A stretch of 64,000 nucleotides of DNA. Source: Xanthobacter flavus (GTDB taxonomy: Bacteria > Pseudomonadota > Alphaproteobacteria > Rhizobiales > Xanthobacteraceae). Below the pieces are notes generated by a model. It searched no databases. It was not told the DNA's origin and saw only the letters and a list, made by a program, of their open reading frames with translations. The DNA lies in assembly GCF_017875275.1 (NCBI RefSeq), contig NZ_JAGGML010000001.1:4733001-4797000 (forward strand). Direction: 5' to 3'. Below, one piece after another: positions 3,236 through 25,862 of the stretch (within the stretch, counting starts at the first letter, position 1; the number at the start of each line of letters is the position of its first letter). The translations under genes were made by a program, and so were the position numbers.

Positions 3236-3332
3236 TGACGCGCTACGGTCCCGCCGCTGGAGGAGCAGGGCTGTTATACATCCTGGCACCGTTCACAGCG
3301 ACCTAGCCACACAACGTTTAAGGGAGCGTTGC

Positions 3333-3346
3333 CGTGTTGCAACACG
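3333..3346. promoter_or_regulatory. 14-bp perfect palindrome in the divergent export/SDR promoter region
   Basis: CGTGTTGCAACACG is a perfect inverted repeat between the export lipoprotein gene (minus) and the short-chain dehydrogenase gene (plus). The surrounding 234 bp are less GC-rich than the flanking genes and hold no other gene. It is a plausible operator, but no regulator can be named. Confidence 0.35.
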
Positions 3347-3469
3347 TCAGCGTTGTCCGCCAAAATACCGCAGTCGTCGCGCGCCTTTACGTGGTATCGC
3401 CGGCTCGATCATACCATCCGCGGAACGTGGGGACGGTATTTTAATAATCTCGAAAGGCAGGAGGAGGGG

Positions 3470-4297: not shown

Positions 4298-4300
4298 GCA

Positions 4301-6391
4301 TCAGCGCCCCAGCGCCTCCAGCAGCGGCTGGATGGCGGGGCCGTAGCGGCGCCAGCGTCCGACCGAGGAGGCATAGAGCGGCTCGCGCACCTGGGTGATG
4401 CTGGCGGTGCGCACCGGCCGCTCGGTCTCGTGAAACTTCAGGCAGGCCGGGTCCCAGTCTTCCCCGCACGCGGAGATGAGACTGCGGGCGGCGGCCTCGA
4501 TGTCGGCCACCACCGCCTCGTAGTCCATGGGAAGGATCGTGCCTTCCGGCAGCACCGCGCCCCAGTGTGCCATCAGGCCGGCATAGGCGTGATGGTGACG
4601 GGCAAGCTCGGCGAAATCGTAGCTGTACGGCAGGTCGTCGCGGAACAGCTTGGAGAAGCAGGAGATGGCGGTGTCCACCGGATCGCGCCGGCAATGGATG
4701 ATGACCGCACGCGGAAACAGGATGTGGATGAGGCCGAGATAGAAGTAGTTGTTGAGCATCTTGTCCGCCACCAGCCGCTTGCCGGGGGCGCGGGCGGGCA
4801 AGGCATCGAGATAGGCGGAGGAGATCTCCCCCATCTCCGGCCGCTCCATGAGGTGCATCAGCTCGGGATAGTGGACCATGCCGCCGAAGGCCTGGTCGAT
4901 GCGATTCACAGCGCGGTGGAACAGGTCCATCTCGCCGCCGCCCTGGATGGCGGGATGGCTGGCGAGAATCTGCTCCACCAGCGTGCTGCCCGAGCGCGGC
5001 ATGCCGACGATGAAGATGGGCCGGGCCTCGGCAGTCCCCATCCCCGCCCGCTCGGCGATGAAGGAACGGGTGAAGATGGCGCGGATGCGCTCGAAGGTGG
5101 CGAGCGCGGCGGGCTCGTCATAGGTCACCTGCGCGCGCTTGAGCTTCGCGCCGGCGATGAACTGGTCCATGGCCTCGGCGTGGCGGCCGAGGTCGTCATA
5201 GGCCTTGCCGAGCGCGTAGTGGAGCGGGATGCGCTCCACTACGCCGGTCTCGCGCGACAGCGCCGTCTCCAGCGCCGCCACCATGTCTTCCTCCGGCCGC
5301 ACCTTGCGCGCGGCGACGAGGTTCACGCGGCTGTTGAGGGAGGCGGGATCCTTCGCCAGCGCCCGCTCGAACAGGGCGCAGGCGCCGCGCAGGTCGCCGG
5401 TCTCCATCAGCAGCAGGCCGAGCACGTTCAGGGCGTCGAGATCGTCCGGGGCAAGCGCAAGCGCGCGGCGGGCGGCGTCCATGGCCTCCGGCCCGCGTTC
5501 CAGATCGCGCAGGATGCGGGCGAGGAGGACGAGGGTCGGCACATGGTGCGGATTGGCCCGGAGCGCACGCTGGCACGCCGAGCGCGCGCCTTCCGCCTTG
5601 CGCTCGTTCAGCAGGCCCTGAGCCAGATAGAAGGCCGGTTCCGGCCGCTCCGGCGCCGCGGAAATGGCGAGGGCCAGCACCGCGAAGGCCTCCTCGCTCC
5701 GCTCCTGCGCGAACAGGGAGAGGGCGAGCGAATTGTAGGGCTCCACATAGTCCCGCCGCTGGGCGATGGCCGTATGGAGGGCTGCGTCGGCCTCGCGGAA
5801 GTCGCCCTGCTCGCGCAGCACGTTGCCGATGTTGTTCCAGGCCTCCGGATAATGCCCGCGGTGGGCGAGGGCGGCGCGGAAGGCGGCGATGGCCTCGCCC
5901 GGACGGCTTTGGGCGCGCAGGGCATTGCCGAGATTGTTGTGGGCCTCGGCAAAGGCGGGGCGCAGCGCGATGGCCCGCTCATAGCAGGCGATGGACTCCT
6001 CCAGCGCGCCGGTCTCGAACAGGGCGATGCCCAGGTTATTGTGACCGGCGGCATAGGCCGCATCCGCCGCCACCGCGGCGCGCCCGGCGGCAATGGCGCC
6101 CGCCCGGTCGCCGGTCTGGCGGCGCATCTCGCACAGATTGCTGTGGTAGGAGGCGCGTCCGGGATCGGTCTCGGCCGCAAGCGCCATGAAGCTCACGGCG
6201 TCTTGCGTGCGGCCTGTCTGCGCGAGGATGACCCCGACGAGGTGCGCCGCCTCGGCGGTCGCCGCCTGCTGGCCGAGCACCGCGCGCCGGACGATGGCCC
6301 GCGCCACCGCTTCGGCACCCGCCCTGTCGCCAGCGTGGTAGAGTTCCCAGGCCCGCTCCAGCGTGGGCGGCCCGCCGCGATCCGCGCCCAT
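4301..6391 (-). CDS. TPR-repeat protein fused to a PAPS-dependent sulfotransferase domain
   Basis: The 696-residue protein begins with about 380 residues of tetratricopeptide repeats (for example AGHNNLGIALFETGALEESI and AEAHNNLGNALRAQSRPGEAI). It ends with a sulfotransferase domain: the 5'-phosphosulfate loop is IFIVGMPRSGSTLVEQILASH (near residue 460) and the 3'-phosphate strand is VIIHCRRDPVDTAISCF (near 575). It should transfer sulfate from PAPS to a protein or glycan held by the TPR superhelix. There is no signal peptide, so it acts in the cytoplasm. Its start lies 11 bases after the stop of the large autotransporter gene on the same strand, suggesting co-transcription and that the autotransporter may be a substrate. 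Confidence 0.88.
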   Translation of the reverse strand: MGADRGGPPTLERAWELYHAGDRAGAEAVARAIVRRAVLGQQAATAEAAHLVGVILAQTGRTQDAVSFMALAAETDPGRASYHSNLCEMRRQTGDRAGAIAAGRAAVAADAAYAAGHNNLGIALFETGALEESIACYERAIALRPAFAEAHNNLGNALRAQSRPGEAIAAFRAALAHRGHYPEAWNNIGNVLREQGDFREADAALHTAIAQRRDYVEPYNSLALSLFAQERSEEAFAVLALAISAAPERPEPAFYLAQGLLNERKAEGARSACQRALRANPHHVPTLVLLARILRDLERGPEAMDAARRALALAPDDLDALNVLGLLLMETGDLRGACALFERALAKDPASLNSRVNLVAARKVRPEEDMVAALETALSRETGVVERIPLHYALGKAYDDLGRHAEAMDQFIAGAKLKRAQVTYDEPAALATFERIRAIFTRSFIAERAGMGTAEARPIFIVGMPRSGSTLVEQILASHPAIQGGGEMDLFHRAVNRIDQAFGGMVHYPELMHLMERPEMGEISSAYLDALPARAPGKRLVADKMLNNYFYLGLIHILFPRAVIIHCRRDPVDTAISCFSKLFRDDLPYSYDFAELARHHHAYAGLMAHWGAVLPEGTILPMDYEAVVADIEAAARSLISACGEDWDPACLKFHETERPVRTASITQVREPLYASSVGRWRRYGPAIQPLLEALGR

Positions 6392-13021: not shown

Positions 13022-13555
13022 TCAGGCGACGTCGGGCCGGCGCGTCGTGGCGCCGTCGATTCGCCCGATCTCCCGCAGCCGGGTGCCGAGGGCGAGCCGG
13101 TCCAGCTTGGCAATCGGAAGCGCGGTAAAGGCCGATATGCGGTTCTTGAGATAGCGGAAGGCGGCGCTGAAGGCGGCTTCCTTGGCAATGTCGCTGCCCT
13201 CGACAGCGGCGGGATCCTCGATGCCCCAGTGTGCGGTCATGGGTTGGCCGGGCCAGATGGGGCAGGCCTCGCCGGCCGCGTTGTCGCAGACGGTGAAGAC
13301 GAAATCCATCACTGGCGCGCCGGGCTCGGCAAACTCCAGCCAGCTCTTGGAGCGCAGGCCGTAGGTGGGATAACCGAAAGCGGTCAGGGTCCGGACCGCG
13401 AACGGGTTCACCTCTCCCTTGGGCGCGCTTCCAGCGGAGAAGGCGCGGAAGTGACCGCCCCCATCCTTCGCCAGAATGCTCTCTGCGAGAATGGAGCGCG
13501 CCGAATTGCCGGTGCACAGGAACAACACGTTGAAGGTGTCTCTTGTCTCAGACAT
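13022..13555 (-). CDS. arsC: Arsenate reductase, low-molecular-weight phosphatase type
   Basis: The 177-residue enzyme opens with the phosphatase loop CTGNSARS (Cys14-X5-Arg20), and the stretch FTVCDNAAGEACPIWPG is typical of ArsC proteins of this fold, including the downstream Cys residues used for the disulfide relay. It reduces arsenate to arsenite in the cytoplasm. It starts 8 bases inside the end of arsR (the shared sequence ATGTCTGA), so the two are translationally coupled. No arsenite exporter gene (arsB or acr3) follows; the next gene is convergent. Confidence 0.9.
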   Translation of the reverse strand: MSETRDTFNVLFLCTGNSARSILAESILAKDGGGHFRAFSAGSAPKGEVNPFAVRTLTAFGYPTYGLRSKSWLEFAEPGAPVMDFVFTVCDNAAGEACPIWPGQPMTAHWGIEDPAAVEGSDIAKEAAFSAAFRYLKNRISAFTALPIAKLDRLALGTRLREIGRIDGATTRRPDVA

Positions 13556-13925
13556 GGCTCTTCTCGCGTCTTTTGGTTTCCGCGTTGGGTGGACAGGTAC
13601 AGGAAAGAGCAGCCACGGCCGGTGCGCAGACTTCGGGATGGCCGTTGCAGCAGTCCTTCATCAGGAAGGCGATGAGCCCGGACAGGGCGGCATGGACAGG
13701 GCTGTAGATGATGGACCTGCCCTCCCGGCGCGAACGGACCAGACCAGCCTGTTCCAGATGGCCGAGGTGGAAGGACATCCGCGAGGACGAGGCGCCGCCC
13801 ATCGCCTCTCCGATGGCGCCGGCCGCCAGCCCTTCCGGCCCCGCCTGCACCAGAATCCGGACGATGCGCAGCCGCGTCTCCTGCGAGAGGGCGGCGAATG
13901 CAGACAGGGCCGAGGCTTCGTTCAT
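13548..13925 (-). CDS. arsR: ArsR-family arsenite-responsive repressor
   Basis: This 125-residue winged-helix protein (MNEASALSAFAALSQETRLR...) has the recognition helix around SSRMSFHLGHLEQAG. It lacks the classical CxC pair in the DNA-binding helix. Instead it has Cys92, Cys93 and Cys100 (DCCNGHPEVC), the alternative C-terminal arsenite site seen in many alphaproteobacterial ArsR proteins. The ATG at 13925 is preceded within 6 bases by a perfect dyad, leaving little room for a ribosome binding site. It probably represses its own operon with arsC. Confidence 0.88.
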   Translation of the reverse strand: MNEASALSAFAALSQETRLRIVRILVQAGPEGLAAGAIGEAMGGASSSRMSFHLGHLEQAGLVRSRREGRSIIYSPVHAALSGLIAFLMKDCCNGHPEVCAPAVAALSCTCPPNAETKRREKSHV

Positions 13926-13930
13926 ACTTC

Positions 13931-13956
13931 CATATCTCAAGATATGTTGAGATATG
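13931..13956. promoter_or_regulatory. ArsR operator: 10-bp perfect inverted repeat
   Basis: The arms are CATATCTCAA (13931-13940) and TTGAGATATG (13947-13956) around a 6-bp spacer. The site sits 6 bp upstream of the arsR start codon. It is AT-rich in a GC-rich context and has the size and symmetry of ArsR/SmtB operators. Confidence 0.8.
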
Positions 13957-14113
13957 AGCGATCCTAATGCTTCCCATGGCAGGGCGCAAGGCTTGAGCGG
14001 TGGCGGGCGATGAAAGGTCAGGAGCGGCGGTTCGCCGAGTTCCTGTCGGCGTGGCCATGGCAAGCGGAAGCCAGGGAGATGGAGCGTGCGGCCTGTGCCG
14101 TGGCCCTTCTGGC

Positions 14114-14506
14114 TCAGCCTGCGGCGACCGCCACGGCCTCGATCTCGAACCGCCATTCCGGGCGGGCGAGGGCGGCGGCGATCACCAGCGTCGAGGCGGG
14201 CTTTTGGCCCTTGAGCAGCTCCGTGCGCAGCGATCCGTAGCCGGCATAGTCGGCCGGATCGGTAAGAAAGGCCGTGACCTTGGCGAGGTCGCCGAGCCCC
14301 ATGCCGGCAGCCGCGAGGACCTGTTCCAGATTGGCGAAGGCGGCGCGCACCTGCCCTTCGAAATCAGCCGGCACCTGCCCCGTGGCGTCGATGCCCACCT
14401 GTCCCGAGATGTAGAGCGTTCGCACCGGGCCAGTCGCGAGCACGGCGGGGCTGTAGGGCAGGGCAGCATCAGCCGGGTTGGCGAGCACGGGCGAGAGAAC
14501 GGACAT
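14114..14506 (-). CDS. RidA/YjgF-family protein lacking the usual substrate arginine
   Basis: The 130-residue protein has the RidA core (LYISGQVGIDATGQVPADFEGQ, VTAFLTD and the C-terminal FEIEAVAV). In canonical RidA, PARS supplies the Arg that holds the imine carboxylate; here the aligned segment reads PAST, so the Arg is replaced by Ser. That places it among the Rid groups not expected to have standard enamine/imine deaminase activity. It starts immediately after the stop of the arylformamidase-like gene, as the last gene of the Liv/di-iron operon, and is probably specific to that pathway. Confidence 0.85.
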   Translation of the reverse strand: MSVLSPVLANPADAALPYSPAVLATGPVRTLYISGQVGIDATGQVPADFEGQVRAAFANLEQVLAAAGMGLGDLAKVTAFLTDPADYAGYGSLRTELLKGQKPASTLVIAAALARPEWRFEIEAVAVAAG

Positions 14507-15352
14507 TCAGGCCTCCGAAGGGCTGGCGAGGGCGAGGATCGCGCGGGTGAGCGGGTCGGTGCCGTCGGCCAGGGGATCGAGCAAAGTGAAATGGTTGCGC
14601 CGGGCCGGCTCCATGGACTGCACCGCGCCGCCGCGCGCCGCCCACAGCGCGGCGAAATCGCGGCTCCAGCGTTTGAAACCGTCCGTCTCCTCCGCGCCCA
14701 CGGCGCACAGGAGCGGCATGAGCCGGGCGCTTGGCGGCAGGTCGCCGAGGCGCAGCAGCGGGCTCGCCGCCGCTGCCTCCGGCCCTGAGAGGCGGAGGTC
14801 GGCGTTGATGGAGGTGTGCCGCAGCGGCCGCAGGTCGTAGACGCCGGAGAGGCCGGCGAGGGCGCAGATGGGGCCGTCGCCCCGCTCCGCCTGATCGAGC
14901 GCCAGCATGGCCGCGAGCTGCCCGCCCGCCGAATGGCCGGCCACCACGATGCGGGACGGAGCCAGATGGTCCACCACCCAGCGCAACGCGAGACGCATCT
15001 CGTCCAGGATGTCGGCAACGCGCACACCGGACACCAGATCATAGGTCGGTGCCACCAGCGTCACCCCGGCGGCGATCGAGGGGCCGGCGATGAAGGAGAC
15101 ATCGGACTTGTCCAGCGCGCGCCAGTAGCCGCCATGGATGAAGAACAGCACCGGCGCGCCGTCGCCGGCCGGAAACACGTCCAGCAGGCAGCGCGGGCCG
15201 GGTCCATAGCGCTGGTCCAGCCGCCAGCCACCGCTGGCGCGCAGCGCTGCCCCGAGGCGACGGTGGCCGTCATAGACGCTCTCGCGCTCGGGATGCCGTC
15301 GGCGCAGGGCGTATTCGGCTTCGAGCGCGGGATCGATGAGGGTATGCGGCAT
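14507..15352 (-). CDS. Arylformamidase-like alpha/beta hydrolase
   Basis: This 281-residue hydrolase has the kynurenine-formamidase oxyanion motif HGGYW (residues 73-77), the nucleophile elbow GHSAGG (Ser141) and a likely catalytic His254 (RNHF). Family members hydrolyse N-formyl aromatic amines or related amides and esters. It follows livF by 15 bases and abuts the RidA-family gene, so it is part of the transport/oxidation operon. No other kynurenine-pathway gene is present, so a formamide, carbamate or ester in an unknown pathway is more likely than N-formylkynurenine. Confidence 0.82.
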   Translation of the reverse strand: MPHTLIDPALEAEYALRRRHPERESVYDGHRRLGAALRASGGWRLDQRYGPGPRCLLDVFPAGDGAPVLFFIHGGYWRALDKSDVSFIAGPSIAAGVTLVAPTYDLVSGVRVADILDEMRLALRWVVDHLAPSRIVVAGHSAGGQLAAMLALDQAERGDGPICALAGLSGVYDLRPLRHTSINADLRLSGPEAAAASPLLRLGDLPPSARLMPLLCAVGAEETDGFKRWSRDFAALWAARGGAVQSMEPARRNHFTLLDPLADGTDPLTRAILALASPSEA

Positions 15353-15367
15353 GGGATTTCCGAAAAC

Positions 15368-16081
15368 TCACAGGCCGAGATAGGCGGCGCGCACGCCGTC
15401 GTCATGGAGGAGGTCGGCGCCCGCACCGTCGCGCACGACGGCGCCCTCGGCGAGGACATAGCCGTGGGCGGCGCTGCGCAGGGCCATGCTTGCATTCTGC
15501 TCGGCGATGAGGAGGGACATGCCCTCGGCATTGAGGCGGCGGATGGTGGCGAAGATCTCCTGCACCACCTTGGGCGCGAGGCCCATGGAGGGCTCGTCGA
15601 GCAGCAGAAGGCGGGGCCTGCCCATGAGGGCGCGGCCGATGGCGAGCATCTGCTGCTCGCCGCCGGAGAGCAGCCCGGCCGCCTGCCGCCGCCGCTCGGC
15701 GAGGCGGGGAAAGAGCGCGAACACCATGTCGAGGTCGGCAGCGACACCCTGCGCCCGGCGCGGCCACAGCCGGCGGAAGGCGCCCATCTCCAGATTTTCC
15801 TCCACCGTCATGGGCGCGAACACGCGGCGCCCTTCCGGCACCAGCGCCAGCCCGCGCGACAGGCGGGAGGAGGTCGAGAGGTTGGTGATGTCCGCCCCAT
15901 CGAACACGATGCGCCCCCCCGTGGGACGGATGAGGCCGGCGAGGGTGCGCAGCAGGGTCGTCTTGCCCGCGCCATTGGCGCCGATGAGGCAGACGGATTG
16001 CCCGCGCGCCACCTTCAGGGAAACCGCGTGCAGCACATCGGTGCCGCCATAGCCGGCGACGAGGCCTTGCACCTCAAGCAT
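15368..16081 (-). CDS. livF: ABC transporter ATP-binding protein, LivF type
   Basis: The 237-residue ATPase has Walker A GANGAGKTT (near residue 35), the signature LSGGEQQ, Walker B LLLLDEPSMGL and the H-loop region. Length and sequence fit LivF, the shorter ATPase of branched-chain amino-acid/amide (HAAT) importers. It overlaps livG by 8 bases. In this operon the real substrate is probably the compound oxidised by the adjacent di-iron proteins rather than leucine. Confidence 0.9.
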   Translation of the reverse strand: MLEVQGLVAGYGGTDVLHAVSLKVARGQSVCLIGANGAGKTTLLRTLAGLIRPTGGRIVFDGADITNLSTSSRLSRGLALVPEGRRVFAPMTVEENLEMGAFRRLWPRRAQGVAADLDMVFALFPRLAERRRQAAGLLSGGEQQMLAIGRALMGRPRLLLLDEPSMGLAPKVVQEIFATIRRLNAEGMSLLIAEQNASMALRSAAHGYVLAEGAVVRDGAGADLLHDDGVRAAYLGL

Positions 16082-16859
16082 CGACCGCCTCCTCGCCGAG
16101 ATAGGCGGAGAGCACCTCCGGATGGCGGCGAACCTTCTCCGCCGTGCCCTCGGCGATGCGCCGGCCGTTGTTGAGCACCAGAATGTCGTGGGAGAGCGAC
16201 ATGACCATGCGCATGTTGTGCTCCACCAGCAGCACGGTCATGCCGTCGCGGTTCAGGTCGCGAATGGTCTCGGCCATCCTGTCCGCTTCGGCGTGGGGCA
16301 GGCCGGCGGCGGGCTCGTCCAGCAGCAGGAGGCGCGGCTCGGAGGCGAGGGCGCGGGCAAGTTCGAGCACCTTCATCTGCCCGAAGGCCAGCGACCCTGC
16401 CGGCGCATGGGCCTTGGCGGCAAGGCCGAAGCGCTCCAGCAGCCCCATGGCGGTGGCCTCCATCGCCCGTTCCTCGGCGCCCACGGCCGGGATGTGGAGA
16501 AGGGCGGACAGCGTGGTGGCGCGGCCGCGCAGGTGGCGGCCCACCATGACGTTCTCCAGCACGGTCAGCTCGCGGAAGATCTGCAAATTCTGGAAGGTGC
16601 GGGCGATGCCGCGGCGTGCGCGTTCGTGGGTCGGCAGGCGATCGATGCGGGCGCCATCGAACTTCATGGCGCCGTCGGTCGGTCGGGTGACGCCGGCGAT
16701 CATGTTGAACAGCGTGGACTTGCCGGCGCCGTTGGGGCCAATCACCGCCTTGATCTCCCCGGTCTTCACCCGGAAGGAGAGATCGTCCACGGCGGTGACG
16801 CCGGCGAAGCGGCAGGTGAGGTTTTCGACCTGCAGAAGATCGCTCACGCGCGCCGTCAT
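16074..16859 (-). CDS. livG: ABC transporter ATP-binding protein, LivG type
   Basis: The 261-residue ATPase has Walker A GPNGAGKST, the LivG-type long insertion between Walker A and the signature, Walker B LLLLDEPAAGL and a C-terminal AYLGEEAVDA tail. The ATG at 16859 overlaps the livM stop by 4 bases (ATGA), showing translational coupling. It should pair with LivF to power the LivHM permease. Confidence 0.9.
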   Translation of the reverse strand: MTARVSDLLQVENLTCRFAGVTAVDDLSFRVKTGEIKAVIGPNGAGKSTLFNMIAGVTRPTDGAMKFDGARIDRLPTHERARRGIARTFQNLQIFRELTVLENVMVGRHLRGRATTLSALLHIPAVGAEERAMEATAMGLLERFGLAAKAHAPAGSLAFGQMKVLELARALASEPRLLLLDEPAAGLPHAEADRMAETIRDLNRDGMTVLLVEHNMRMVMSLSHDILVLNNGRRIAEGTAEKVRRHPEVLSAYLGEEAVDA

Positions 16860-17857
16860 GCCCGCCTCCTTCGCACGAGGCCGGCCAGCGCGGCCGGAAC
16901 GCCCGCAAGCCCGCGCGGGAACAGGATCAGCACCACCAGCAGGCCGAGGCCGAATAGCATGAGTTCGGCATCCTCGTAATCGAGCAGGATCTGCGGCACA
17001 GCCGTGTAGATCAGCGCGCCCAGCATCGGCCCGTAGAAGGTGCCCGCGCCGCCGATGGCGACCATCACAAGGAGCATGATGGAGGGGGCGATGCCGAAGG
17101 TCTCCGGCGAGGCATACTGGTTGATGTGGACATAGAGGCTGCCGGCGATGCCCGCCATGCAGGCGCTGAGCACGAACACCGCGAGCTTGGTGCGGAAGCT
17201 GTCGATGCCCAGCGACTGCGCGCCCAGTTCGTTGGTCGCCACCGCCCGGATGCTGCGGCCGATGCGCGAGGCGAGAAGGTTGGAGATGGCGAGCATCACC
17301 AGGAAGGCCACGCCCCACGCCAGCGGGAAGGCCTTGGCCTCGGTGTCCAGCGCATGGCCGAAGAAGGAGAAGGGCTCGACGCCGAGGAGGCCGTTGGGGC
17401 CGCCGGTGAGCCCCACCAATTGGGTGAAGAAGACGACGAGAATGGCATTCCACCCCAGCGTCGCCATGGCGAGGTAATGTCCGCGCAGCCGCAGCGCCGG
17501 AATGCCGATGAGGAGCGCTCCGAGGCCGGCGACGGTCGCGGCCGCCGGCAGCCCGGCCCAGGGCGGCACGCCATAGCGCACGTTGAGGATGCCGCTCGCA
17601 TAGGCGCCAAGGCCGAAGAAGCCGGCATGGGCCAGCGAGATCTGACCGCCATAGCCCATCAGCAGATTGAGCGAGGCGATCAGCACCAGATTGATGAGGG
17701 CGAGATTGGCGAGGGAGATCCAATAGGCGTTGGGCACCAGAAAGGGCACCGCCGCCAGTGCGAGCCACACCAGCGCCAGACGGGCATGGCGGGAGAGGCC
17801 GCGCCGGGGCAGGCCGCTGTGGGTCATCGGTCCGGTCTCCGCCTCGATGCTGGCCAT
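16856..17857 (-). CDS. livM: ABC transporter permease, LivM type
   Basis: The 333-residue integral membrane protein has about nine hydrophobic segments. The LivM signature LMGYGGQISLAHAGFFGLGAY is visible near residue 70, and the conserved cytoplasmic loop is present around SIRAVATNELGAQSLGID. It forms the HAAT permease with LivH. It starts 4 bases after the livH stop, with GTGAGG just upstream. Confidence 0.9.
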   Translation of the reverse strand: MASIEAETGPMTHSGLPRRGLSRHARLALVWLALAAVPFLVPNAYWISLANLALINLVLIASLNLLMGYGGQISLAHAGFFGLGAYASGILNVRYGVPPWAGLPAAATVAGLGALLIGIPALRLRGHYLAMATLGWNAILVVFFTQLVGLTGGPNGLLGVEPFSFFGHALDTEAKAFPLAWGVAFLVMLAISNLLASRIGRSIRAVATNELGAQSLGIDSFRTKLAVFVLSACMAGIAGSLYVHINQYASPETFGIAPSIMLLVMVAIGGAGTFYGPMLGALIYTAVPQILLDYEDAELMLFGLGLLVVLILFPRGLAGVPAALAGLVRRRRA

Positions 17858-17861
17858 GGCC

Positions 17862-18743
17862 TCACACCTTCACGATGTCGGCGCGGCCGAGCAGGCCGGA
17901 GGGGCGGACGAACAGGATGAGCAGCAGCACGGCGAAGGCGATGGCATCCTTGAAGGCGGAGGAGATGTAGAAGCTGCCGAACGCCTCCAGCAGCCCCAGC
18001 GCCAGCCCGCCCACCACGGCGCCCGGCAGGCTGCCAAGCCCGCCCAGCATGGCGGCGCTGAACCCCTTGAAGCCGAACATGGCGCCCTGGTCGTAGGAGG
18101 CGAGGGTGAGCGGCGTGACGATGGCGCCGGCGAGCGCCCCAGCGAGCGCCGCGATGCCGAAGGAGAGCAGCACGGTGCTGCCCACATTCACCCCGACGAT
18201 CGCCGCCGCCTCCCGGTCCGCCGCCGCCGCGCGCAGCGCCTTGCCAAGGATGGTGCGCTCGAAGAAGGCGTGCATCACCACCAGGAAGGCGAGGGTGATG
18301 GCGATGATCCAGAGCGTCTGGCTCTGGATGCTCACCCCGCCGACCGAGAGCGCGGTGTTGCCGGAGAAGCCGGCATAGCCCACCGGCTTCTTGCCCAGCA
18401 CCAGCATCACGAGGCTGCGGCTGACGATGGAGAGGCCGATGGTGACGAGGGTGATGACGAGGGCATCCGGCTTCTTCAGCGGTTGCACCGTCAGCCGCTC
18501 GGAAAGAAGGCCGACGACGCCCACCAGCACCACCGCCGTCACCACCGCGAGGCCGATGCTGGAGAAGGCGCCGATGAGGAGAGCGGTGACCATGCCGCCC
18601 ATCACCACCCATTCCCCCTGCGCGAAATTCATCGCGCCGGTGCTCTTGAAGACCACATTGAAGCCAAGCGCCACCAGCGCATAAACGGCGCCCGTGCCGA
18701 TGCCGGCGGACAGGACCTGGAGGAGGGCGGTTGCGGTCTGCAT
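17862..18743 (-). CDS. livH: ABC transporter permease, LivH type
   Basis: The 293-residue permease begins MQTATALLQVLSAGIGTGAVYAL and carries the LivH-type segment FKSTGAMNFAQGEWVVMGG. About eight membrane segments can be read. The ATG at 18743 is preferred over an upstream in-frame start at 18827 because family homology begins there. A 177-bp gap with two hairpins separates it from the di-iron genes upstream. Confidence 0.9.
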   Translation of the reverse strand: MQTATALLQVLSAGIGTGAVYALVALGFNVVFKSTGAMNFAQGEWVVMGGMVTALLIGAFSSIGLAVVTAVVLVGVVGLLSERLTVQPLKKPDALVITLVTIGLSIVSRSLVMLVLGKKPVGYAGFSGNTALSVGGVSIQSQTLWIIAITLAFLVVMHAFFERTILGKALRAAAADREAAAIVGVNVGSTVLLSFGIAALAGALAGAIVTPLTLASYDQGAMFGFKGFSAAMLGGLGSLPGAVVGGLALGLLEAFGSFYISSAFKDAIAFAVLLLILFVRPSGLLGRADIVKV

Positions 18744-18828
18744 GGGGTGACGGCCAGCCTTCGGCGCGTTGGAAATGACGTGCCCCATCAGGGGGATGAA
18801 GGTCCCGGCCGCCGCGCTCCGGAGCAAT

Positions 18829-18843
18829 CGGGGCTTTGCCCCG
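18829..18843. terminator. Small hairpin between di-iron genes and livH
   Basis: CGGGGC-TTT-GCCCCG forms a 6-bp GC stem with a 3-base loop in the 177-bp gap. No T-run follows, so it is more likely a partial terminator or RNA-processing/stability structure than a full stop. Confidence 0.35.
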
Positions 18844-18896
18844 GGGGACGCGGACGGCCGGGACAGGTTCGGGTTGGGCGCGAGGCCCGCCCGTTT

Positions 18897-18918
18897 CCTC
18901 GGAACGAGACGTCCGAGG
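18897..18918. terminator. Hairpin just after the stop of the second di-iron gene
   Basis: CCTCGGA (18897-18903) and TCCGAGG (18912-18918) form a 7-bp stem with an 8-base loop, immediately 3' of the 18921 stop on the minus strand. It could attenuate read-through into livHMGF or protect the upstream mRNA segment. Confidence 0.35.
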
Positions 18919-18920
18919 GG

Positions 18921-19856
18921 TCAGAAACTGCGCATGCGGTTGGTCTCGAACAAGGGCACCATCACCCCCAGTTCCGCGAGGCGGGCGCGGGCGTTGCCGG
19001 CGAAGGTCGCGAGCGCATCCTCCTCCGCCGCGCGCGCCGCGCCGCCGAGACCGGCCTCCGCCGTGATCGCATCGGCTTCCGCTTCGGCCGCGGCGTGCTC
19101 GGGCGCGAGCCAGGGGCAGTGATAGCCCTTCAGCACCACGTCCCGCACATAGTCGGACAGCTCGGCCGCGATGGTCTCGCGCTCCGCCTTCGTCCAGCCC
19201 TCCGCCTTGGCGGCGAGATAGAGCCAGCCAAAGGCGGCGTGGCGCTCCTTGTCGGCAATCACGAAGTCGAGCATGGACTGCACGGCCGGGTTGGTGGCGG
19301 CGGCGCGCCAGGCCTTGGCCAGTTCCAGCTCCAGCCCGTCCTCGAAGGCGGCGTGGGCGGCCACGTAGGCGTCGAGCAATTGGCCGGCATCCATCACCCG
19401 GCGGTGCAGGTGGCGGTTGAAGACGGCCTCATAGGCCTTGGCCGCCGGCCGGGCGAGGCGACCGCCGAAGGTCTCGGCGATCTTGTCGTAGCACTCGACG
19501 TGCCACGCCTCTTCGGTGTTGCGGGTGGTGAGGTAGAATTTCGGGTCGATCTCCCGGCCCACCTCCATGCAGAAGCGCACGATGAGGGCCGGGGTCTCGG
19601 TGAGGCCCGTGGCCTCGGTCCACACCCGCCGGCTCCAGGTGCGGCGGGCGGCGGCGCGCACTTCCTCCGGATAGGTCTCCGGCTTGAGCGCGCTCCAGTC
19701 CACGTCCCGATGCGGGTTCCAGCGGCCGGCCTTGCCCGTGTCGTAGAGCGCGCGGATCTCCGGCAGCGTGACGTTCATCTCGAGCGGAAACCGCCGCTCG
19801 ACGAGAAGCCGCACCGGCGGCAGCGAGGGCTCGGCCCGCGTGGCGTGGAGCGGCAT
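18921..19856 (-). CDS. Ferritin-like di-iron-family protein, degenerate metal site (paralogue A)
   Basis: This 311-residue helical protein is clearly paralogous to the upstream gene product: shared blocks are RFPLE, WNPHRDVDWSAL, GYHCPWLAPE and EADAITAEAGLG. The first metal motif is intact (Glu116-X2-His119 in NTEEAWHVE). The second, which aligns with DESRH in the partner, reads DKERH, so a Lys (203) stands where the metal-binding Glu should be three residues before the His. It is therefore probably a non-catalytic or altered subunit partnering the intact paralogue. The start at 19856, one base after the partner's stop, is supported because homology to the partner extends up to RFPLE. Confidence 0.85.
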   Translation of the reverse strand: MPLHATRAEPSLPPVRLLVERRFPLEMNVTLPEIRALYDTGKAGRWNPHRDVDWSALKPETYPEEVRAAARRTWSRRVWTEATGLTETPALIVRFCMEVGREIDPKFYLTTRNTEEAWHVECYDKIAETFGGRLARPAAKAYEAVFNRHLHRRVMDAGQLLDAYVAAHAAFEDGLELELAKAWRAAATNPAVQSMLDFVIADKERHAAFGWLYLAAKAEGWTKAERETIAAELSDYVRDVVLKGYHCPWLAPEHAAAEAEADAITAEAGLGGAARAAEEDALATFAGNARARLAELGVMVPLFETNRMRSF

Positions 19857-19857
19857 G

Positions 19858-20811
19858 TCAGATGGTCCCGAGCTTGGGATGCGTGAAGGGGGGCAGTTCG
19901 ATGCCGAGCGCGCGCATCTGCTCGCGGATACGCTGCACGGTCGCGATGAAGACCGGCTTTTCCTCGTCCTCCACGGTGGCGCCGAGGCCCGCCTCGTAGG
20001 TGATGCGGTCGGCCTCCACCTCGGCGTTGGAGGCCGGGTTCTCCGGCGCCAGCCATGCGCTGTGGTAGCCGTTCAGCTCCACCTTCTCCATCATGGTGAT
20101 GACGGCATCCTCGATCATCTTCTTCTGATCGGGGGTGAGCTGCTCGCAGATGGCTTCGAGGAAGTACCAGCCGAAGGCGCAGTGCCGGCTTTCATCGCGC
20201 ATGATGTAGCGCACGATCTGCTTGGCGACGGGATCGTGCGTGACGTCGTTCAGGTGCTTGAACACGTCGAAGGCGATCTCCTCCGCCGTGCAGACGAGGG
20301 CGGCGATGATGCCCTCCAGCGGCACGTCCGCATTGAGGGCGGCGCGGCGCACGCCGTGGGTGGAGACGGAGCCCTCGAAGAGCTGCTGCACCGGCTTCTC
20401 GATATAGCCGCCGAGCTTCTCCGCCATGGCGTGGCAGACCTCGGCGTGGCGCGCCTCCTCCTGCGAACGGATGGTGAAGAAGAGCTGCATGTCGGAGGGG
20501 CGGTTCTCCACGCCGAAGCGCACCTGCAGCGCCGGGCTCTCGGAGATGGCGCCATATTCGCTCCACGCCCGGCGGCTCCAGTAGAGCCGGGCGGCGTAGC
20601 GCTGCTCGTCGGTGTATTTGGAGGGGTCGAGCTGGTCCCAGTCCACGTCGGTTTTGGGGTCCCACTGGTTCCGCGTCGCCGCGTGGAACAGCTCGCGGAT
20701 GCGCGGCAGATCGGAATTGAAGGTCAGCGGAAAGCGGTCCTCGGGCGCATCCAGCAGCGTCTGGACCACCTCGAACGCCTGCTCGGCGGACATGTCACGC
20801 GAAAGGGCCAT
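19858..20811 (-). CDS. Ferritin-like di-iron oxygenase-type protein (paralogue B)
   Basis: The 317-residue helical protein has two ExxH motifs, EARH (Glu119, His122) and ESRH (Glu207, His210), an additional Glu pair at 177-178 (CTAEEIAFD) and Glu85 or Glu91 as a possible first ligand. Together these suggest a carboxylate-bridged di-iron centre like those of N-oxygenases and ribonucleotide-reductase R2-like enzymes. It likely oxidises the compound imported by the Liv transporter, with paralogue A as partner; the electron donor could be the reductase encoded at 23694-24653. It lies 27 bases downstream of the binding-protein gene. The exact family and substrate are unknown. Confidence 0.85.
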   Translation of the reverse strand: MALSRDMSAEQAFEVVQTLLDAPEDRFPLTFNSDLPRIRELFHAATRNQWDPKTDVDWDQLDPSKYTDEQRYAARLYWSRRAWSEYGAISESPALQVRFGVENRPSDMQLFFTIRSQEEARHAEVCHAMAEKLGGYIEKPVQQLFEGSVSTHGVRRAALNADVPLEGIIAALVCTAEEIAFDVFKHLNDVTHDPVAKQIVRYIMRDESRHCAFGWYFLEAICEQLTPDQKKMIEDAVITMMEKVELNGYHSAWLAPENPASNAEVEADRITYEAGLGATVEDEEKPVFIATVQRIREQMRALGIELPPFTHPKLGTI

Positions 20812-20838
20812 GGTGTTTCCTCCCGTTGGTGTTTCCCG

Positions 20839-22071
20839 TCAGGCGTAGTCGGCAAGGTTGAAGCGGCCATCGCGCCAGTTCACCAGCACGATGTCCTGTT
20901 TCGAGAGGCCGGAATGGCGCTCGGGCGAGAAGGTGAAGACGCCGGAGATGCCGGGGAAATCCTTGATCTGCTCCATGCCCTGGCTGAGCTTGGAGATGTC
21001 GCCCCCCACCTTCTTCAGCGCCTCGCGGGCGAGCAGCGCGCCGTCGTAGGATTCCGCCGCATAGATGCTGGCGGGGCGTTTGAAGCGCGCCTCGTAGGCC
21101 TTCATCATCTTGAGAATGCCGGCCTTGAGCGGGTCGCTGTCCGGCAACTGGTCGCCCACGGGCAGCTTCAGGCTGGCGAGGAGCAGGGTGTTGGCGGCGT
21201 CGCCGGCGAGCTTCATGTAGTCCGCCGAGACGAACCCGTAGCTGTGGATCAGCGTTTTCTTGTCGAGGCCCAGCTGCTGCGCCTGCTTGAGGAAGACGAC
21301 GCCGGCCGGCGTCACCGTCCAGCAGATGATAGCCTCGGCGCCGGCATCGCGGATGCGGGTCAGCTGGGGCATCATGTCGGTGTCGGAGGGGGCGAAGGAT
21401 TCATACATCACGTCGAGGCCGCGCTTCGGCCCGACGATCTTCATCTGCCCCACCGCGCCCTGGCCGAAGCCGGACGTGTCGGCGATGAGCGCCACCTTCT
21501 TGATCTTCTTCTTGTCGAGATAATCGGCGATGCGCTCCAGCACGTCGCCGTCGTCCACCGTGCTCTTGAACACATACTGGCGTTCGGCCACCGGCGTCAC
21601 GATGGCGAGCGCGCCCTCGGACGAGATGAAGGGCACCTTGGCGGCGTTGGTGATGGGCGCCATGGCCAGCGCAATGCCGCTCATGTTGCCGCCGCTGAGG
21701 ATCAGCTCCACCTTGTCCTGGCTGATGAGCCGGCGGGTGGCGGTGATGCCCTTCTGGGTCTGGCTCTCGGCGTCGTAATAGGTCCACTCGATCTTGCGGC
21801 CGCCGAGGCCGCCCGCGGCGTTGAACTCCTCCACCGCGAGTTCGAGGCCGGCCTTCATGTCCTCGCCGAGGAAGGCCGCGGGGCCGGTCACGGAAAGGAT
21901 GGAGCCGACGCGCAGCGGCTCGGCGGCGCGGGCGGCGCTGCTCCACAGGCCGGCCACGGTCCCGGTGCCGGTGGCCGCGAGGGCGGCGGCGGGCACCATC
22001 TTCAGGAAGCTGCGTCGTCCGAACTGCACTTCTGGCCTCCTCTGGAAGGGCGCTTCGTGCGCCTCGTTCAT
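20839..22071 (-). CDS. livJ: Tat-exported Liv-type periplasmic binding protein
   Basis: This 410-residue type-I periplasmic binding protein starts with a twin-arginine signal (RRSFLKM at 19-25, hydrophobic stretch, cleavage near AARAAEPLRVG). The mature part shows the HAAT pattern VGSILSVTGPAAFLGEDMKAGLELAVEEFNAAGG (a long conserved block) and the second lobe around SYDGALLAREALKKV. It delivers substrate to LivHMGF. Export by Tat instead of Sec is less common for this family. The gene begins 49 bases after the gntR stop, with no other gene between. Confidence 0.88.
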   Translation of the reverse strand: MNEAHEAPFQRRPEVQFGRRSFLKMVPAAALAATGTGTVAGLWSSAARAAEPLRVGSILSVTGPAAFLGEDMKAGLELAVEEFNAAGGLGGRKIEWTYYDAESQTQKGITATRRLISQDKVELILSGGNMSGIALAMAPITNAAKVPFISSEGALAIVTPVAERQYVFKSTVDDGDVLERIADYLDKKKIKKVALIADTSGFGQGAVGQMKIVGPKRGLDVMYESFAPSDTDMMPQLTRIRDAGAEAIICWTVTPAGVVFLKQAQQLGLDKKTLIHSYGFVSADYMKLAGDAANTLLLASLKLPVGDQLPDSDPLKAGILKMMKAYEARFKRPASIYAAESYDGALLAREALKKVGGDISKLSQGMEQIKDFPGISGVFTFSPERHSGLSKQDIVLVNWRDGRFNLADYA

Positions 22072-22120
22072 CGTGCGCCGGACGGAATGCCCGGAGCGGA
22101 AACGGCTGCGGGCATGGCGG

Positions 22121-22951
22121 TCAGTCGTCGTGGACGCCGCTGCGGTCGATCTCGGCGGCGGGGCCGCCGTCGCGGGAAAGGGGAACGCTGAGCGAATAGC
22201 GCACGAGATCGGCGCGATGCACGGTGTGGCCGGAGAGCGCGAGGCGGCCGGCGGCGTCGCGATAGCTCAGGGTGCGGATCAGCACCGGGGCGCCCTTGGT
22301 GAGGTGGAGATACTCCACCTCCTCCGGCCCGGCGACGCCGGCCTCGATGGTGAAGTCGCCGGTCTTCAGGTCCACCGCCTGCCACAGGCGATGGAGGGGC
22401 GAGCCGTGGACCGCCTCTTCCGTCCAGCCGATGGTGAGATCGGCCGGCAGATAGCGATAGTCGATGGCGAGCGGCACGCGGGCCGCGGCGCGCAGGCGCT
22501 TGATGAACAGCACCGGCGCGCCGGCTTCGGTCTCAAGGCTGGCGGCGATGGTCTCGTCGGCGACGATGCGCTCGAAGGCCAGCACGGTCGCCTGCATGGG
22601 CATGCCGGTGGCGGCCCACTGGTTCAGGAAATCCATGCCCGGGTTGAAGCGCTCTTCCAGCTTGCGCACGGCGACGAACGTGCCGAGGCCGCGGCTGCGG
22701 GTGAGCAGGCCCTCCTGCACCAGCTCCGCCACCGCCTGCCGCGCCGTGTCCCGGCTCACCGAGAACATGGCGCAGAGCTGCTCGTCCGAATAGAAGCGCC
22801 GGTCGCCCTGTTCCCACTTGAGGATGAGGCCGATCAGCCGCTGCTTGATCTGGGCATAGAGGGGCAGCGGCGAGGCGCGGTCGAGGGGCGGGAAAGGCCC
22901 CTCGGCGTCGAGCGGTGCAACGTTGGTCAGCGTCTCGGACATGCACGTCAC
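22121..22951 (-). CDS. GntR-family regulator, HutC/UTRA subfamily
   Basis: The protein is 276 residues long, or 273 if the ATG at 22942 is used. The N-terminal winged helix is visible around LYAQIKQRLIGLILKWEQGD and the recognition region FSVSRDTARQAVAELVQEGLLTRSRGLGTFV. A C-terminal UTRA ligand domain follows (about 100-260). It is the first gene of the same-strand run leading into livJ, the di-iron pair and livHMGF, so it probably controls that operon in response to the substrate. Three 14-bp direct repeats and a dyad lie upstream. Confidence 0.88.
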   Translation of the reverse strand: MTCMSETLTNVAPLDAEGPFPPLDRASPLPLYAQIKQRLIGLILKWEQGDRRFYSDEQLCAMFSVSRDTARQAVAELVQEGLLTRSRGLGTFVAVRKLEERFNPGMDFLNQWAATGMPMQATVLAFERIVADETIAASLETEAGAPVLFIKRLRAAARVPLAIDYRYLPADLTIGWTEEAVHGSPLHRLWQAVDLKTGDFTIEAGVAGPEEVEYLHLTKGAPVLIRTLSYRDAAGRLALSGHTVHRADLVRYSLSVPLSRDGGPAAEIDRSGVHDD

Positions 22952-22954
22952 CCC

Positions 22955-22996
22955 GGCGCGTCACCTTTGGCGCGTCACCTTTGGCGCGTCACCTTT
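22955..22996. repeat. Three perfect 14-bp tandem repeats upstream of the GntR gene
   Basis: GGCGCGTCACCTTT occurs at 22955-22968, 22969-22982 and 22983-22996, directly adjacent to the gntR start. The copies are identical and head-to-tail. They may be a repeated operator or a slippage product in the leader. Confidence 0.85.
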
Positions 22997-23063
22997 GGCG
23001 CAGAACCCTCTGGTCCGCTGGCGCTGGACCACCGCGAAGGCCGTCTGCACCGGCTTTATATGA

Positions 23064-23083
23064 ATGTAGGGTCAAGCATACAT
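23064..23083. promoter_or_regulatory. Dyad ATGTA-N10-TACAT in the gntR upstream region
   Basis: ATGTA (23064-23068) and TACAT (23079-23083) form a dyad in an AT-rich patch of the 240-bp region between tRNA-His and gntR. Size and symmetry suit a GntR or other dimeric regulator site. A TTGACC string overlaps it on the minus strand, but no well-spaced -10 is apparent. Confidence 0.4.
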
Positions 23084-23191
23084 TTCACGCAACAGCTTTC
23101 TTGCGACGCGTGACGAAGACGGCAGCGACGGCGCAAACACGCAACCGGCGCGGCAGCGAACTAGGGAATATGAGAAAGGGCAGTGCCTGTA

Positions 23192-23268
23192 TGGTACAGG
23201 TGGGTGGGCTCGAACCACCGACCTCCGGTTCCACAGACCGGCGCTCTAACCAACTGAGCTACACCTGC
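23192..23268 (-). tRNA. tRNA-His (anticodon GTG)
   Basis: The 77-nt gene reads GCAGGTGTAGCTCAGTTGG from its 5' end and folds into a complete cloverleaf. The anticodon stem-loop is CCGGT-CTGTGGA-ACCGG, giving anticodon GTG. The T arm is GGTGG-TTCGAGC-CCACC, and CCA is encoded. The acceptor starts with G1 opposite U72, position 73 is A, and the base before G1 is T, so the universal extra G-1 is not encoded. This is the known alphaproteobacterial form. Confidence 0.95.
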
Positions 23269-23693: not shown

Positions 23694-24653
23694 TCACAAA
23701 TCCAACACCAGCAGGTCGCCTTTGGCACGCGAGACGCAGGCCAGGAACCAGCCCTGCGCCTTGTCCTCGGGCTTGAGGCGCTTGTCGCGGTGATCGACCT
23801 CGCCCTCCAGCACCTTCACCTTGCAGGTGCCGCAGGCGCCCTGCTCGCAGGAGGTGGGAATCTTCACGCCTGCTTCTTCCATGGCGGTCGAAACGGAGCG
23901 GTCGCCGGGGATCTTGATGACCTTGCCGGTGGAGGCGATCTTCACGTCGAACACCTTGTCCAGCAGCGGCGGCGGCGCCTTGCCGGTGAAGCGCTCCACA
24001 TGGATGCGGTTGACGCCGAAGCCCTTCTGCTGGGCGCTGGCGATGATGGGGTCGAGCCACCAGTCCACCCCGCAGAGGAAGACGTGCGTGTCGTCCGGCC
24101 GGTCCGCGAGAAGGTTCGCGGCGTTGAGGCGGGGCTCGGCGGCCTCGAAATAGAAGGTGGTGTTGGCCGCGAAGGCGGATCCCTCGATGGTGGACTTGAA
24201 CGCGCCCGGCGAGCCGCCCGCGAAGAGATAGTGGAACTCGAACGGGATGTTCTTCGCCTTGAGATGATCGGCGATGGAGAGAATGGGCGTCGCGCCGATG
24301 CCGCGGGCGAACAGCAGCGCGCGCTTGGTGTCGCGCGGCACGGCGAAGCGATTGCGCGGCGTGCCCACCGCGAGGCGGTCGCCCTCGTTCACCTGCTGGA
24401 ACAGGGCCTTGGAGCCGCCGCGGCTGTTGGCATCCTTCCAAACGCCGATCACGTAGCGATGGCGCTCGCTCTCGCTGTTGATGAGGGAATACTGCCGCAC
24501 GAGGCCGCCGGGGATGGTCACATCCACATGCGAGCCGGCGGTGAAGGCGGGCAGTTCGCCGCCCTCGGCGGGGATCAGCTCGAAGGAGGCCATGTTTTCG
24601 GCCTCGATCGTCTTCTTGGCCACGATCACCGGGCTCAGGGCATCGTCCGACAT
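23694..24653 (-). CDS. Phthalate-dioxygenase-type flavin/2Fe-2S reductase
   Basis: The 319-residue protein has the three-domain order of the PDR/VanB family: an FMN-binding barrel (RQYSLIN), an NAD(P)H domain (LLFARGIGATPILSIADHL) and a C-terminal plant-type 2Fe-2S ferredoxin (CEQGACGTCKV plus a later Cys in FLACVSR). It passes electrons from NAD(P)H to an oxygenase. No Rieske oxygenase is nearby; the best in-window candidate acceptor is the di-iron pair 3-5 kb downstream on the same strand. The ATG at 24653 is chosen because GGAGG lies just upstream; the ATG at 24665 has no such site. Confidence 0.88.
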   Translation of the reverse strand: MSDDALSPVIVAKKTIEAENMASFELIPAEGGELPAFTAGSHVDVTIPGGLVRQYSLINSESERHRYVIGVWKDANSRGGSKALFQQVNEGDRLAVGTPRNRFAVPRDTKRALLFARGIGATPILSIADHLKAKNIPFEFHYLFAGGSPGAFKSTIEGSAFAANTTFYFEAAEPRLNAANLLADRPDDTHVFLCGVDWWLDPIIASAQQKGFGVNRIHVERFTGKAPPPLLDKVFDVKIASTGKVIKIPGDRSVSTAMEEAGVKIPTSCEQGACGTCKVKVLEGEVDHRDKRLKPEDKAQGWFLACVSRAKGDLLVLDL

Positions 24654-24728
24654 CGCATCCTCCAAACCATCCGCACAGGAACGCTGATTGGAGCAGGTGC
24701 AAACGTGGGGCCAGTTGCGTCCGCGGGC

Positions 24729-25862
24729 TCAGGCGAGCCTTGCGAGCGCCTCCGTGGCGAGCTTGTGCGTGAGGTCGGCGGCCGGAAGACGCGGGCTCAG
24801 GGCGGCGGACTGGCCGCACCAGAGGTTGGTGAAATCGTCCCGGCCTTCCGCTTCAGCCTTGGCGCGCAGCGGGGCAAGAGCACCGCCGGAGGTGGGGAAG
24901 GCTGAGGCCTCCGGCGCGATGGGGCCGATCTCGCGCATCACGCGGTTCATGATGCCGCGCGCGGGGCGGCCGGTGAAGATGTTCGTGAGCGCGGTGCTCT
25001 CGTCCGTCGCGGCCTCCAGGGCGGCGCGGTGGACGGCTGGCACCTTCGCTTCCGGCGAGAACAGGTAGGCGGTGCCGATCTGCACCGCCGAAGCCCCCAG
25101 CGCCAGCGCCGCCACGATACCGCGCGCATCGGCGATGCCGCCGGCGGCGATCACCGGCACCCTCACCGCATCCGCCACCTGCGGCACGAGGGAGAAGGTG
25201 CCCACCTGCCGGGCCACGTCCTGCCAGCCGATGGGGGTCTGCGAATAATCGCCGCCGAGGAAGAGGGCGCGATGGCCGCCGGCCTCGAAGCCCATGGCGA
25301 TGATGGCGTCGCAGCCGTGATCCTCCAGCCAGCGCGCCTCGGCCACCGTGGTCGCGGACGAGATGATCTTTGCGCCCGTCGCCTTCACCCGCGCCACGAG
25401 GGCCGGCGCCGGGAGGCCGAAATGGAAGCTCACCACTTCGGGGCGCACCCCCTCCACGACGGCGCAGAACGTGTCGTCGAACGGCGCGCGGGAGGGGGAG
25501 GGGGTGCTCGCGGCCGGGTCGAGCCCGGCCTCGACGTAGTAATCGGCGAGCCGCGCCCGCCAGCGCAGCGCCCGCGCCGGATCGTCCTGCGGGGGCGTGT
25601 GGCAGAAGAAGTTGAGGTTGAGCGGCTTGCCCGGCAGGCCCGCGCGGATCTTCGCCACCGCCGCCTTAAGATCGTCCGCCCCATACATGGCGCAGGGTAA
25701 AGACGCGAGGCCGCCGGCCGTGCCCACCGCAATGGCCAGCTCCGGCGAGCCGGGGCCGGCCATGGGGCCGAGCAGGATGGGGTGCTCGATGCCGAACAGG
25801 TCGAGGATGCGCCGGTCGGGCCAGCGGGCGGCGGCGGGAGCATCGGGCGTGGCGGCGGTCAT
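24729..25862 (-). CDS. Nitronate monooxygenase-like FMN protein
   Basis: The 377-residue TIM barrel resembles 2-nitropropane dioxygenase/nitronate monooxygenase: an N-terminal PILLGPMAG block, MGFEAGGHR with the candidate catalytic His, and the FMN-phosphate segment VIAAGGIADARG followed by LALGASAVQIGTAYL. Family members use FMN to oxidise alkyl nitronates; some relatives are enoyl-ACP reductases, but the GGHR motif favours the nitronate class. It is divergent from the LysR gene, its likely regulator, and is the first gene of the minus-strand run that leads to the di-iron operon. Confidence 0.82.
   Translation of the reverse strand: MTAATPDAPAAARWPDRRILDLFGIEHPILLGPMAGPGSPELAIAVGTAGGLASLPCAMYGADDLKAAVAKIRAGLPGKPLNLNFFCHTPPQDDPARALRWRARLADYYVEAGLDPAASTPSPSRAPFDDTFCAVVEGVRPEVVSFHFGLPAPALVARVKATGAKIISSATTVAEARWLEDHGCDAIIAMGFEAGGHRALFLGGDYSQTPIGWQDVARQVGTFSLVPQVADAVRVPVIAAGGIADARGIVAALALGASAVQIGTAYLFSPEAKVPAVHRAALEAATDESTALTNIFTGRPARGIMNRVMREIGPIAPEASAFPTSGGALAPLRAKAEAEGRDDFTNLWCGQSAALSPRLPAADLTHKLATEALARLA

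Follow-up and report, generated by a model that had tools for sequence, protein, structure and literature searches.

What does a bacterium do with an operon that joins a regulator and a Liv-type importer to two ferritin-like proteins, a hydrolase, and a Rid protein? The question is raised by positions 14,114 to 22,951 of a 64,000-nucleotide stretch of Xanthobacter flavus DNA (herein the window; NCBI RefSeq assembly GCF_017875275.1, contig NZ_JAGGML010000001.1, positions 4,733,001 to 4,797,000), part of a 5.35-Mb genome in a single contig whose closest matches at the locus are Xanthobacter. Comparison with relatives identifies the operon as a genuine, conserved cassette of catabolic type. We lean toward reading it as an inducible catabolic operon, in which one specific compound would be taken up through the Liv system, oxidized with O2 by the paired ferritin-like proteins (herein A and B), and hydrolyzed at an acyl bond. 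Ten open reading frames, all on the minus strand, make up the operon; they lie in the order, and within the bounds, given in an earlier note on this DNA:

22121 to 22942, minus strand: GntR/UTRA (HutC-type) regulator (UTRA 84.3 bits; start by start-codon comparison, with an alternative GTG upstream at 22951)
20839 to 22071, minus strand: Liv-type periplasmic binding protein (Peripla_BP_6 203.9 bits; PDB 3sg0 and 4dqd; near-invariant motifs over 22 sequences)
19858 to 20811, minus strand: diA, predicted catalytic ferritin-like oxygenase subunit A (ligands E85, E119xxH122, E177, and E207xxH210)
18921 to 19856, minus strand: diB, predicted pseudo-di-iron partner subunit B (Lys at the position of E207)
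17862 to 18743, minus strand: LivH-type permease (Pfam; start codon examined)
16856 to 17857, minus strand: LivM-type permease (Pfam)
16074 to 16859, minus strand: LivG-type ATPase (Pfam)
15368 to 16081, minus strand: LivF-type ATPase (Pfam)
14507 to 15352, minus strand: HGGYW alpha/beta hydrolase, kynurenine-formamidase-like (Pfam, motif and structure alignment)
14114 to 14506, minus strand: Rid-family protein with Ser for the canonical catalytic Arg (Pfam, alignment)

The genes are tightly packed, as the earlier note had described: 49 bp separate the GntR and binding-protein genes, 27 bp the binding-protein gene and diA, 1 bp diA and diB, 4 bp livH and livM, 15 bp livF and the hydrolase gene, and 0 bp the hydrolase and rid genes, while livM/livG and livG/livF overlap by 4 and 8 bp. 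Spacing thus ranges from −8 to 49 bp, with one larger gap of 177 bp between diB and livH. Across the ten proteins Pfam assigns UTRA with GntR, Peripla_BP_6, AurF (diA), two BPD_transp_2, two ABC_tran, Abhydrolase_3, and Ribonuc_L-PSP.

A species-genome collection was scanned with the A alignment, giving 23 loci, to which one Paraburkholderia plasmid locus was added (24 A/B loci, cited by L numbers). The scan used two short peptide patterns, so that divergent A/B loci are missed and records close to the window may be absent; flanking genes of relatives are codon-bias calls made in this analysis. The loci come from Alphaproteobacteria (Xanthobacter, Bradyrhizobium, Rhodopseudomonas, Pseudolabrys, Acuticoccus, Azospirillum, Asaia, and other records) and Betaproteobacteria (Candidimonas, Achromobacter, Paraburkholderia, and one Burkholderiaceae bin), and their cassette proteins in other genera are 36 to 100% identical to those of the window. 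A is encoded next to B in all 24; GntR is present in 22, the binding protein with LivHMGF and the HGGYW hydrolase in 21 each, and Rid in 15. Recurrence of the gene order in other genera argues that the grouping is more than chance; the di-iron pair, Liv genes, and hydrolase are co-conserved, which backs the single co-inherited import-and-oxidize unit that the earlier note had proposed. Counting the window's own genome, the pair is patchily distributed (4/14 genomes of the genus, 2/297 of an order sample, 2/385 of a class sample, and 1/398 of a phylum sample), and every genome with a close A in these samples also has B.

Where parts are missing, the core persists. The importer was not seen at L042, L044, and L049, which keep A, B, and the hydrolase; the hydrolase-less loci encode an amidase-signature enzyme (L024 and L048) or a different alpha/beta hydrolase (L034). 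L042 and L044, two loci from metagenome-assembled genomes, carry a tandem doubled A before a single B (3409–5310 and 2725–4673, respectively) and, by eye, are flanked by mutS-like and EamA-like genes. By Pfam architecture the importer of the window is a complete Liv-type system, as first described. That it is an ordinary amino-acid importer beside unrelated genes is scarcely credible: Liv-type genes are common, but the regulator, importer, and A/B pair recur as a common set and order in 21/24 loci across both classes, and the transporter proteins score below the NCBIfam cut-offs for true LivHMGF (LivH 139.4 against 379 bits, LivM 163.4 against 366, LivG 261.9 against 362, and LivF 276.3 against 441).

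In the window A and B are 35% identical, and the predicted models of both fit the R2/ferritin-like fold. Ferritin-like di-iron oxygenases share a six-ligand pattern of E, ExxH, E, and ExxH, according to passages of PMC13061610. A keeps all six ligands in 27/27 sequences and passes the Pfam AurF gathering cut-off (32.4 against 29.6 bits); it is thus predicted to hold a complete carboxylate-bridged dimetal site. B has no Pfam match. Lys replaces the fourth-helix Glu207 in 25/25 B sequences, possibly standing in for the metal charge, position 177 is Asp in 23 and Ala in 2, and His122 is retained in 15. The description of two di-iron paralogues in the earlier note therefore holds by fold and descent and fails by site, which is incomplete in B.

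A tree gives a single origin for the A clade and for the B clade, with support for A monophyly of 91/95, below the tool's star; L053 and the B of L049 were flagged as meeting long branches, and the L085 protein was entered as the C-terminal 320 residues of an extended open reading frame. B is under purifying selection; in the comparisons with Bradyrhizobium and Pseudolabrys, the synonymous divergence (dS) behind this result is high, at about 0.7 to 1.1. Judged from these sequences, B is a sister of A by an old duplication, its site lost, still selected and co-inherited with A. It evolves faster than A: the mean p-distance is 0.48 for B and 0.31 for A, and B has the greater value in 252 of 253 pairs, the doubled-A loci L042 and L044 set aside. 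This would be expected if B were a decaying copy, or an R2-fold protein that binds a ligand or regulates on its own, and not a subunit. We hold that reading to be quite improbable in view of the purifying selection, the invariant Lys, the adjacency in 24/24 loci, the one origin per clade, and a confident AlphaFold model of B (predicted local distance difference test score 90.3). The hetero-oligomeric A/B enzyme already suggested in the earlier note is likely.

The binding protein carries motifs that are near-invariant over the 22 sequences (FLGEDM, GGxMSG, TEG or SEG, KSTVDD, SGFGQ, WTVTP, and HSYGF), with few exceptions (L034, L038, L039, and L050); such conservation suggests that the same or a similar ligand is bound throughout the set, and ligand screening could identify the substrate directly. 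Among solved structures the protein matches 3sg0 and 4dqd, whose ligands we take to be aromatic keto acids; a literature search on this gave nothing relevant. Tat export, claimed at first for the binding protein, agrees with a Tat-like RRSFLK seen by eye in the window and is not universal, as the L024 protein begins without the motif.

The hydrolase retains the HGGYW oxyanion motif, the GHSAG Ser, and the catalytic His in 22/22 sequences and aligns with an insect kynurenine formamidase (4e11), catalytic His included. The arylformamidase-like label thus stands on motifs and catalytic His; its best PDB match is named Lipase 1, and it falls short of the threshold in each of the four NCBIfam families that it matches. 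We therefore regard it as a kynurenine-formamidase-like alpha/beta hydrolase that may target either an amide or an ester bond. The Rid protein has Ser or Ala at the position of RidA Arg105 (alignment to 1qah) in 16/16 A/B-locus sequences, the window included, and Ser in both Rid proteins of the single-gene loci described below, 18/18 in total. This Arg is required for imine/enamine hydrolysis in the Rid proteins tested, Rid4-7 are without it, and Ser is found in roughly 10% of RidA proteins (passages of PMC4433059 and PMC8113886). Imine handling, as first assigned to this protein, is therefore doubtful. The earlier note judged the unit and its co-conservation correctly, erred in giving B a di-iron site, and overstated the Rid step.

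Relatives of A that lack a B subunit supply a second comparison. Thirteen such single-gene di-iron proteins (L027, L083–L086, and L106–L113) form one clade, 20 to 24% identical to A, with 8/13 from one bacterial family. Their loci contain a window-like GntR (HutC-type) in 7/13, a GGT-like hydrolase in 10/13, an iron-type alcohol dehydrogenase (Fe-ADH) in 10/13, and an importer in 11/13 (TRAP in 10 and Liv in 1); importer, GGT-like hydrolase, and Fe-ADH cluster together at L027, L085, L086, and L107–L113. L112 and L113 add an aldehyde dehydrogenase and a Rid 42% identical to that of the window, no GGT-like or TRAP gene was seen at L083 or L084, and the L106 sequence stops shortly past the di-iron gene. 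A regulator, an importer, a di-iron enzyme, and an acyl-bond hydrolase thus form a repeated theme, in which the hydrolase can come from unrelated families. As three A/B loci also substitute a hydrolase of another family, the pathway probably cannot do without acyl-bond hydrolysis; the simplest guess is that the bond cut is an N-acyl (amide) bond.

A rival reading is an aromatic-amine or anilide pathway, in which the hydrolase would free an arylamine, A/B would hydroxylate it, Rid would assist quinone-imine/aminophenol deamination, and the ring would be degraded via hydroxyquinol. The similarity of A to AurF, just above the Pfam cut-off, and the arylformamidase-like hydrolase would fit, as would an intradiol dioxygenase with Fe-ADH directly upstream of the operon at L032, an intradiol dioxygenase beside the single-gene relative of L085, and distant relatives on two Variovorax plasmids that adjoin Liv genes, a 2Fe-2S protein, and CoA-type aromatic genes. 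A part for Rid-type proteins in aminophenol deamination has been put forward, though not proven (passages of PMC9420511 and PMC11446756). We nevertheless consider this pathway unlikely. An intradiol gene lies in the fetched stretch of only 1/24 A/B and 1/13 single-gene loci; a homologue (E ≤ 1e-20) occurs in 19 of 24 genomes (G000 and those of L028–L050, L024 not among them), which says little as no control set was searched. The hydroxyquinol link was set aside as the main reading on these grounds. Fe-ADHs of single-gene loci are only 25 to 30% like that of L032, itself without an NCBIfam match at the threshold used, and we dropped the name maleylacetate reductase for them; the L027 Fe-ADH matches mostly aliphatic alcohol dehydrogenase models, all below cut-off. 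A seventh His is reported as characteristic of ferritin-like N-oxygenases (passages of PMC13061610), and the corresponding position of A, four residues before the last ExxH Glu by motif offset rather than structure, carries Ile in 22 of the 27 sequences and Val in the other 5, which weakens the AurF-based hint of N-oxygenation.

Oxygenase, amidohydrolase, and Rid together also resemble RutA, RutB, and RutC, and a Rut-like route for an N-heterocycle or imide would have A/B open the ring to an N-acyl enamine, the hydrolase deacylate it, and Rid convert the product to a carbonyl. Creatininase-family genes, whose family includes amidohydrolases of small nitrogen compounds, point the same way; one lies between diB and livH at L050 (6760–7587) and L039 (near 11928), and creatininase-like genes lie near the single-gene loci L086 and L111. 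So does the third urocanase gene of the Acuticoccus genome, which follows cluster L025/L026 (G226 contig 24, 18852–20450). We find this route doubtful, since RutC needs its Arg (R104A is inactive; passages of PMC8113886) and Rid here has Ser or Ala throughout; Rid was also not found in nine loci, creatininase occurs in only 2/24 A/B loci, and the window genome has no urocanase match. A urocanase/imidazole link, based on this one Acuticoccus genome, was rejected; the A/B genomes other than these two were not searched for it. The Acuticoccus cluster is also followed by oxoprolinase/hydantoinase-like genes (by eye).

Control of the operon was examined upstream of the regulator, which scores below the NCBIfam HutC cut-off TIGR02018 (92.9 against 220 bits). 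Its start is probably ATG 22942 rather than GTG 22951, because the ATG is kept in Xanthobacter sp. YC-JY1 (L028) and X. aminoxidans (L029) and the GTG context is not. One further feature lies upstream:

23063 to 23084, minus strand: candidate operator/promoter dyad AATGTATGCTTGACCCTACATT, upstream of the regulator

At L028 the dyad upstream of GntR has perfect 8-bp arms, AATGTATG-N6-CATACATT; L029–L033 have similar, less symmetrical sequences at this position (by eye), and CTAGACAA-type sites lie upstream of GntR in several loci besides the window and L028. Three tandem 14-bp units, AAAGGTGACGCGCC (minus strand), lie at 22955–22996, downstream of the candidate operator and ahead of the GntR start, and were not seen in the L028/L029 upstream sequence examined. 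A promoter and terminator scan was near chance (1 found against 0.5 expected; 5 found against 3.6 expected). Upstream of GntR, 10/24 loci encode a protein of ~390 to 450 residues (L043, 6419–7708, minus strand, and by tblastn homology L024, L039, L040, L041, L045, L046, L047, L048, and L050); it was not found by tblastn in the Xanthobacter, Bradyrhizobium, or Azospirillum loci, and the L043 copy has no Pfam match.

Beyond a tRNA-His gene that adjoins the operon (23192–23268) lies a possible source of electrons:

23694 to 24665, minus strand: candidate electron donor, [2Fe-2S] reductase of phthalate-dioxygenase-reductase/VanB type (Pfam Fer2 only; subtype by eye), outside the operon

A nitronate-monooxygenase-family gene follows (24729–25862). 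Both genes also lie upstream in X. aminoxidans and neither is in the stretch fetched from Xanthobacter sp. YC-JY1; with homologues in 1/24 loci they were rejected as operon members. The single-gene locus L083 encodes a reductase 36% identical to that of the window, and more distant relatives, on the two Variovorax plasmids and in Vitreoscilla, adjoin a [2Fe-2S] protein. A protein of this kind is the likely electron donor, although among A/B loci it is near the operon only in the window and L029. Directly downstream of the operon, on the same strand, are an ArsR-like regulator and an arsenate-reductase-like gene (by eye; 13022–14058).

Under the catabolic reading that we favor, the regulator would act at the AATGTA/TACATT dyad to keep the operon off until it binds the imported compound or something derived from it, and the dedicated Liv importer would bring in one specific compound. 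A and B would pair as a heterodimer, with O2 activation and substrate oxidation carried out by A; B would contribute the dimer interface and perhaps a site where the reductase docks. Electrons would come from a [2Fe-2S] reductase encoded elsewhere, in Xanthobacter perhaps that at 23694–24665. The hydrolase would cut a C-N or C-O acyl bond in the oxidized product, or free the substrate before oxidation, and Rid might speed a later non-imine or atypical step. Several points weigh against this. A homologue of the window reductase is in the fetched stretch of one locus in 24 (L029), no GGT gene was found in any of the 24, and the neighbors of the single-gene relatives are weak, non-independent evidence for A/B, given their low identity and their skew to one family. 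Rid is absent in place at L030, L033, L034, L039, L042, and L044, and at the other three loci where it was not found the hydrolase lies no more than about 0.5 kb from a contig end; the core can thus do without Rid. Esters, too, may be cut by hydrolases of this type, and what is said here of activity, complex, and substrate is prediction.

In the open-access PMC literature searched, the operon is undescribed among the matches listed, in line with the earlier note, which knew of no pathway with this gene set. Ferritin-like di-iron oxygenases are known mostly from natural-product pathways; if our reading is true, a heteromeric pseudo-subunit form would be added to them, and scattered Alpha- and Betaproteobacteria would share a degradation route whose substrate is not named in the literature found. 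The Arg-less Rid would be a clean case for the role of such proteins. A bolder version, which we entertain as a real if tentative possibility, is that a new heteromeric ferritin-like oxygenase class with an invariant-Lys pseudo-subunit opens a bacterial degradation route, not described before, for a natural N-acyl or N-heterocyclic compound, with a Rid that works without the known catalytic Arg.

Among known systems, the ferritin-like di-iron oxygenases AurF, CmlI, Dob3, and VlmB share the six-ligand pattern with A, and structural re-alignment gave a fold match to VlmB; A differs in being paired with a site-less sister, in having no seventh His, and in a context that looks catabolic rather than natural-product biosynthetic. 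R2lox gives the best Foldseek hits and the best natural profile matches over most of the fold (a designed helix bundle outscored it, over 21 positions only), but structural identity is 13 to 17% and A is below the NCBIfam NF006200 cut-off (27.2 against 194 bits); R2lox is moreover described as a homodimer, unlike the proposed A/B heterodimer. The rut operon likewise combines an oxygenase, an amide hydrolase, and Rid, whereas the present one has another oxygenase class, a Rid without the Arg, and a dedicated ABC importer. The single-gene clusters share the related di-iron protein and, in part, the HutC-type regulator (7/13), importer (11/13), and Rid (2/13); the A/B operon has B and Liv, where they have mostly TRAP, a GGT-like hydrolase, and Fe-ADH. 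Phenylacetyl-CoA epoxidase, PaaABCE, pairs a catalytic with a structural sister subunit (passages of PMC4498308), as A and B appear to do; no PaaB, PaaD, or PaaE gene is among the ten, A scores 20.9 against 280 bits for PaaA, and PaaA/PaaC are not among the 50 structural re-alignment matches listed. By this analogy B appears to stand to A as PaaC does to PaaA, a partner conserved as a pseudo-enzyme, and in the pair a known oxygenase fold seems to have taken on a new, heteromeric form.

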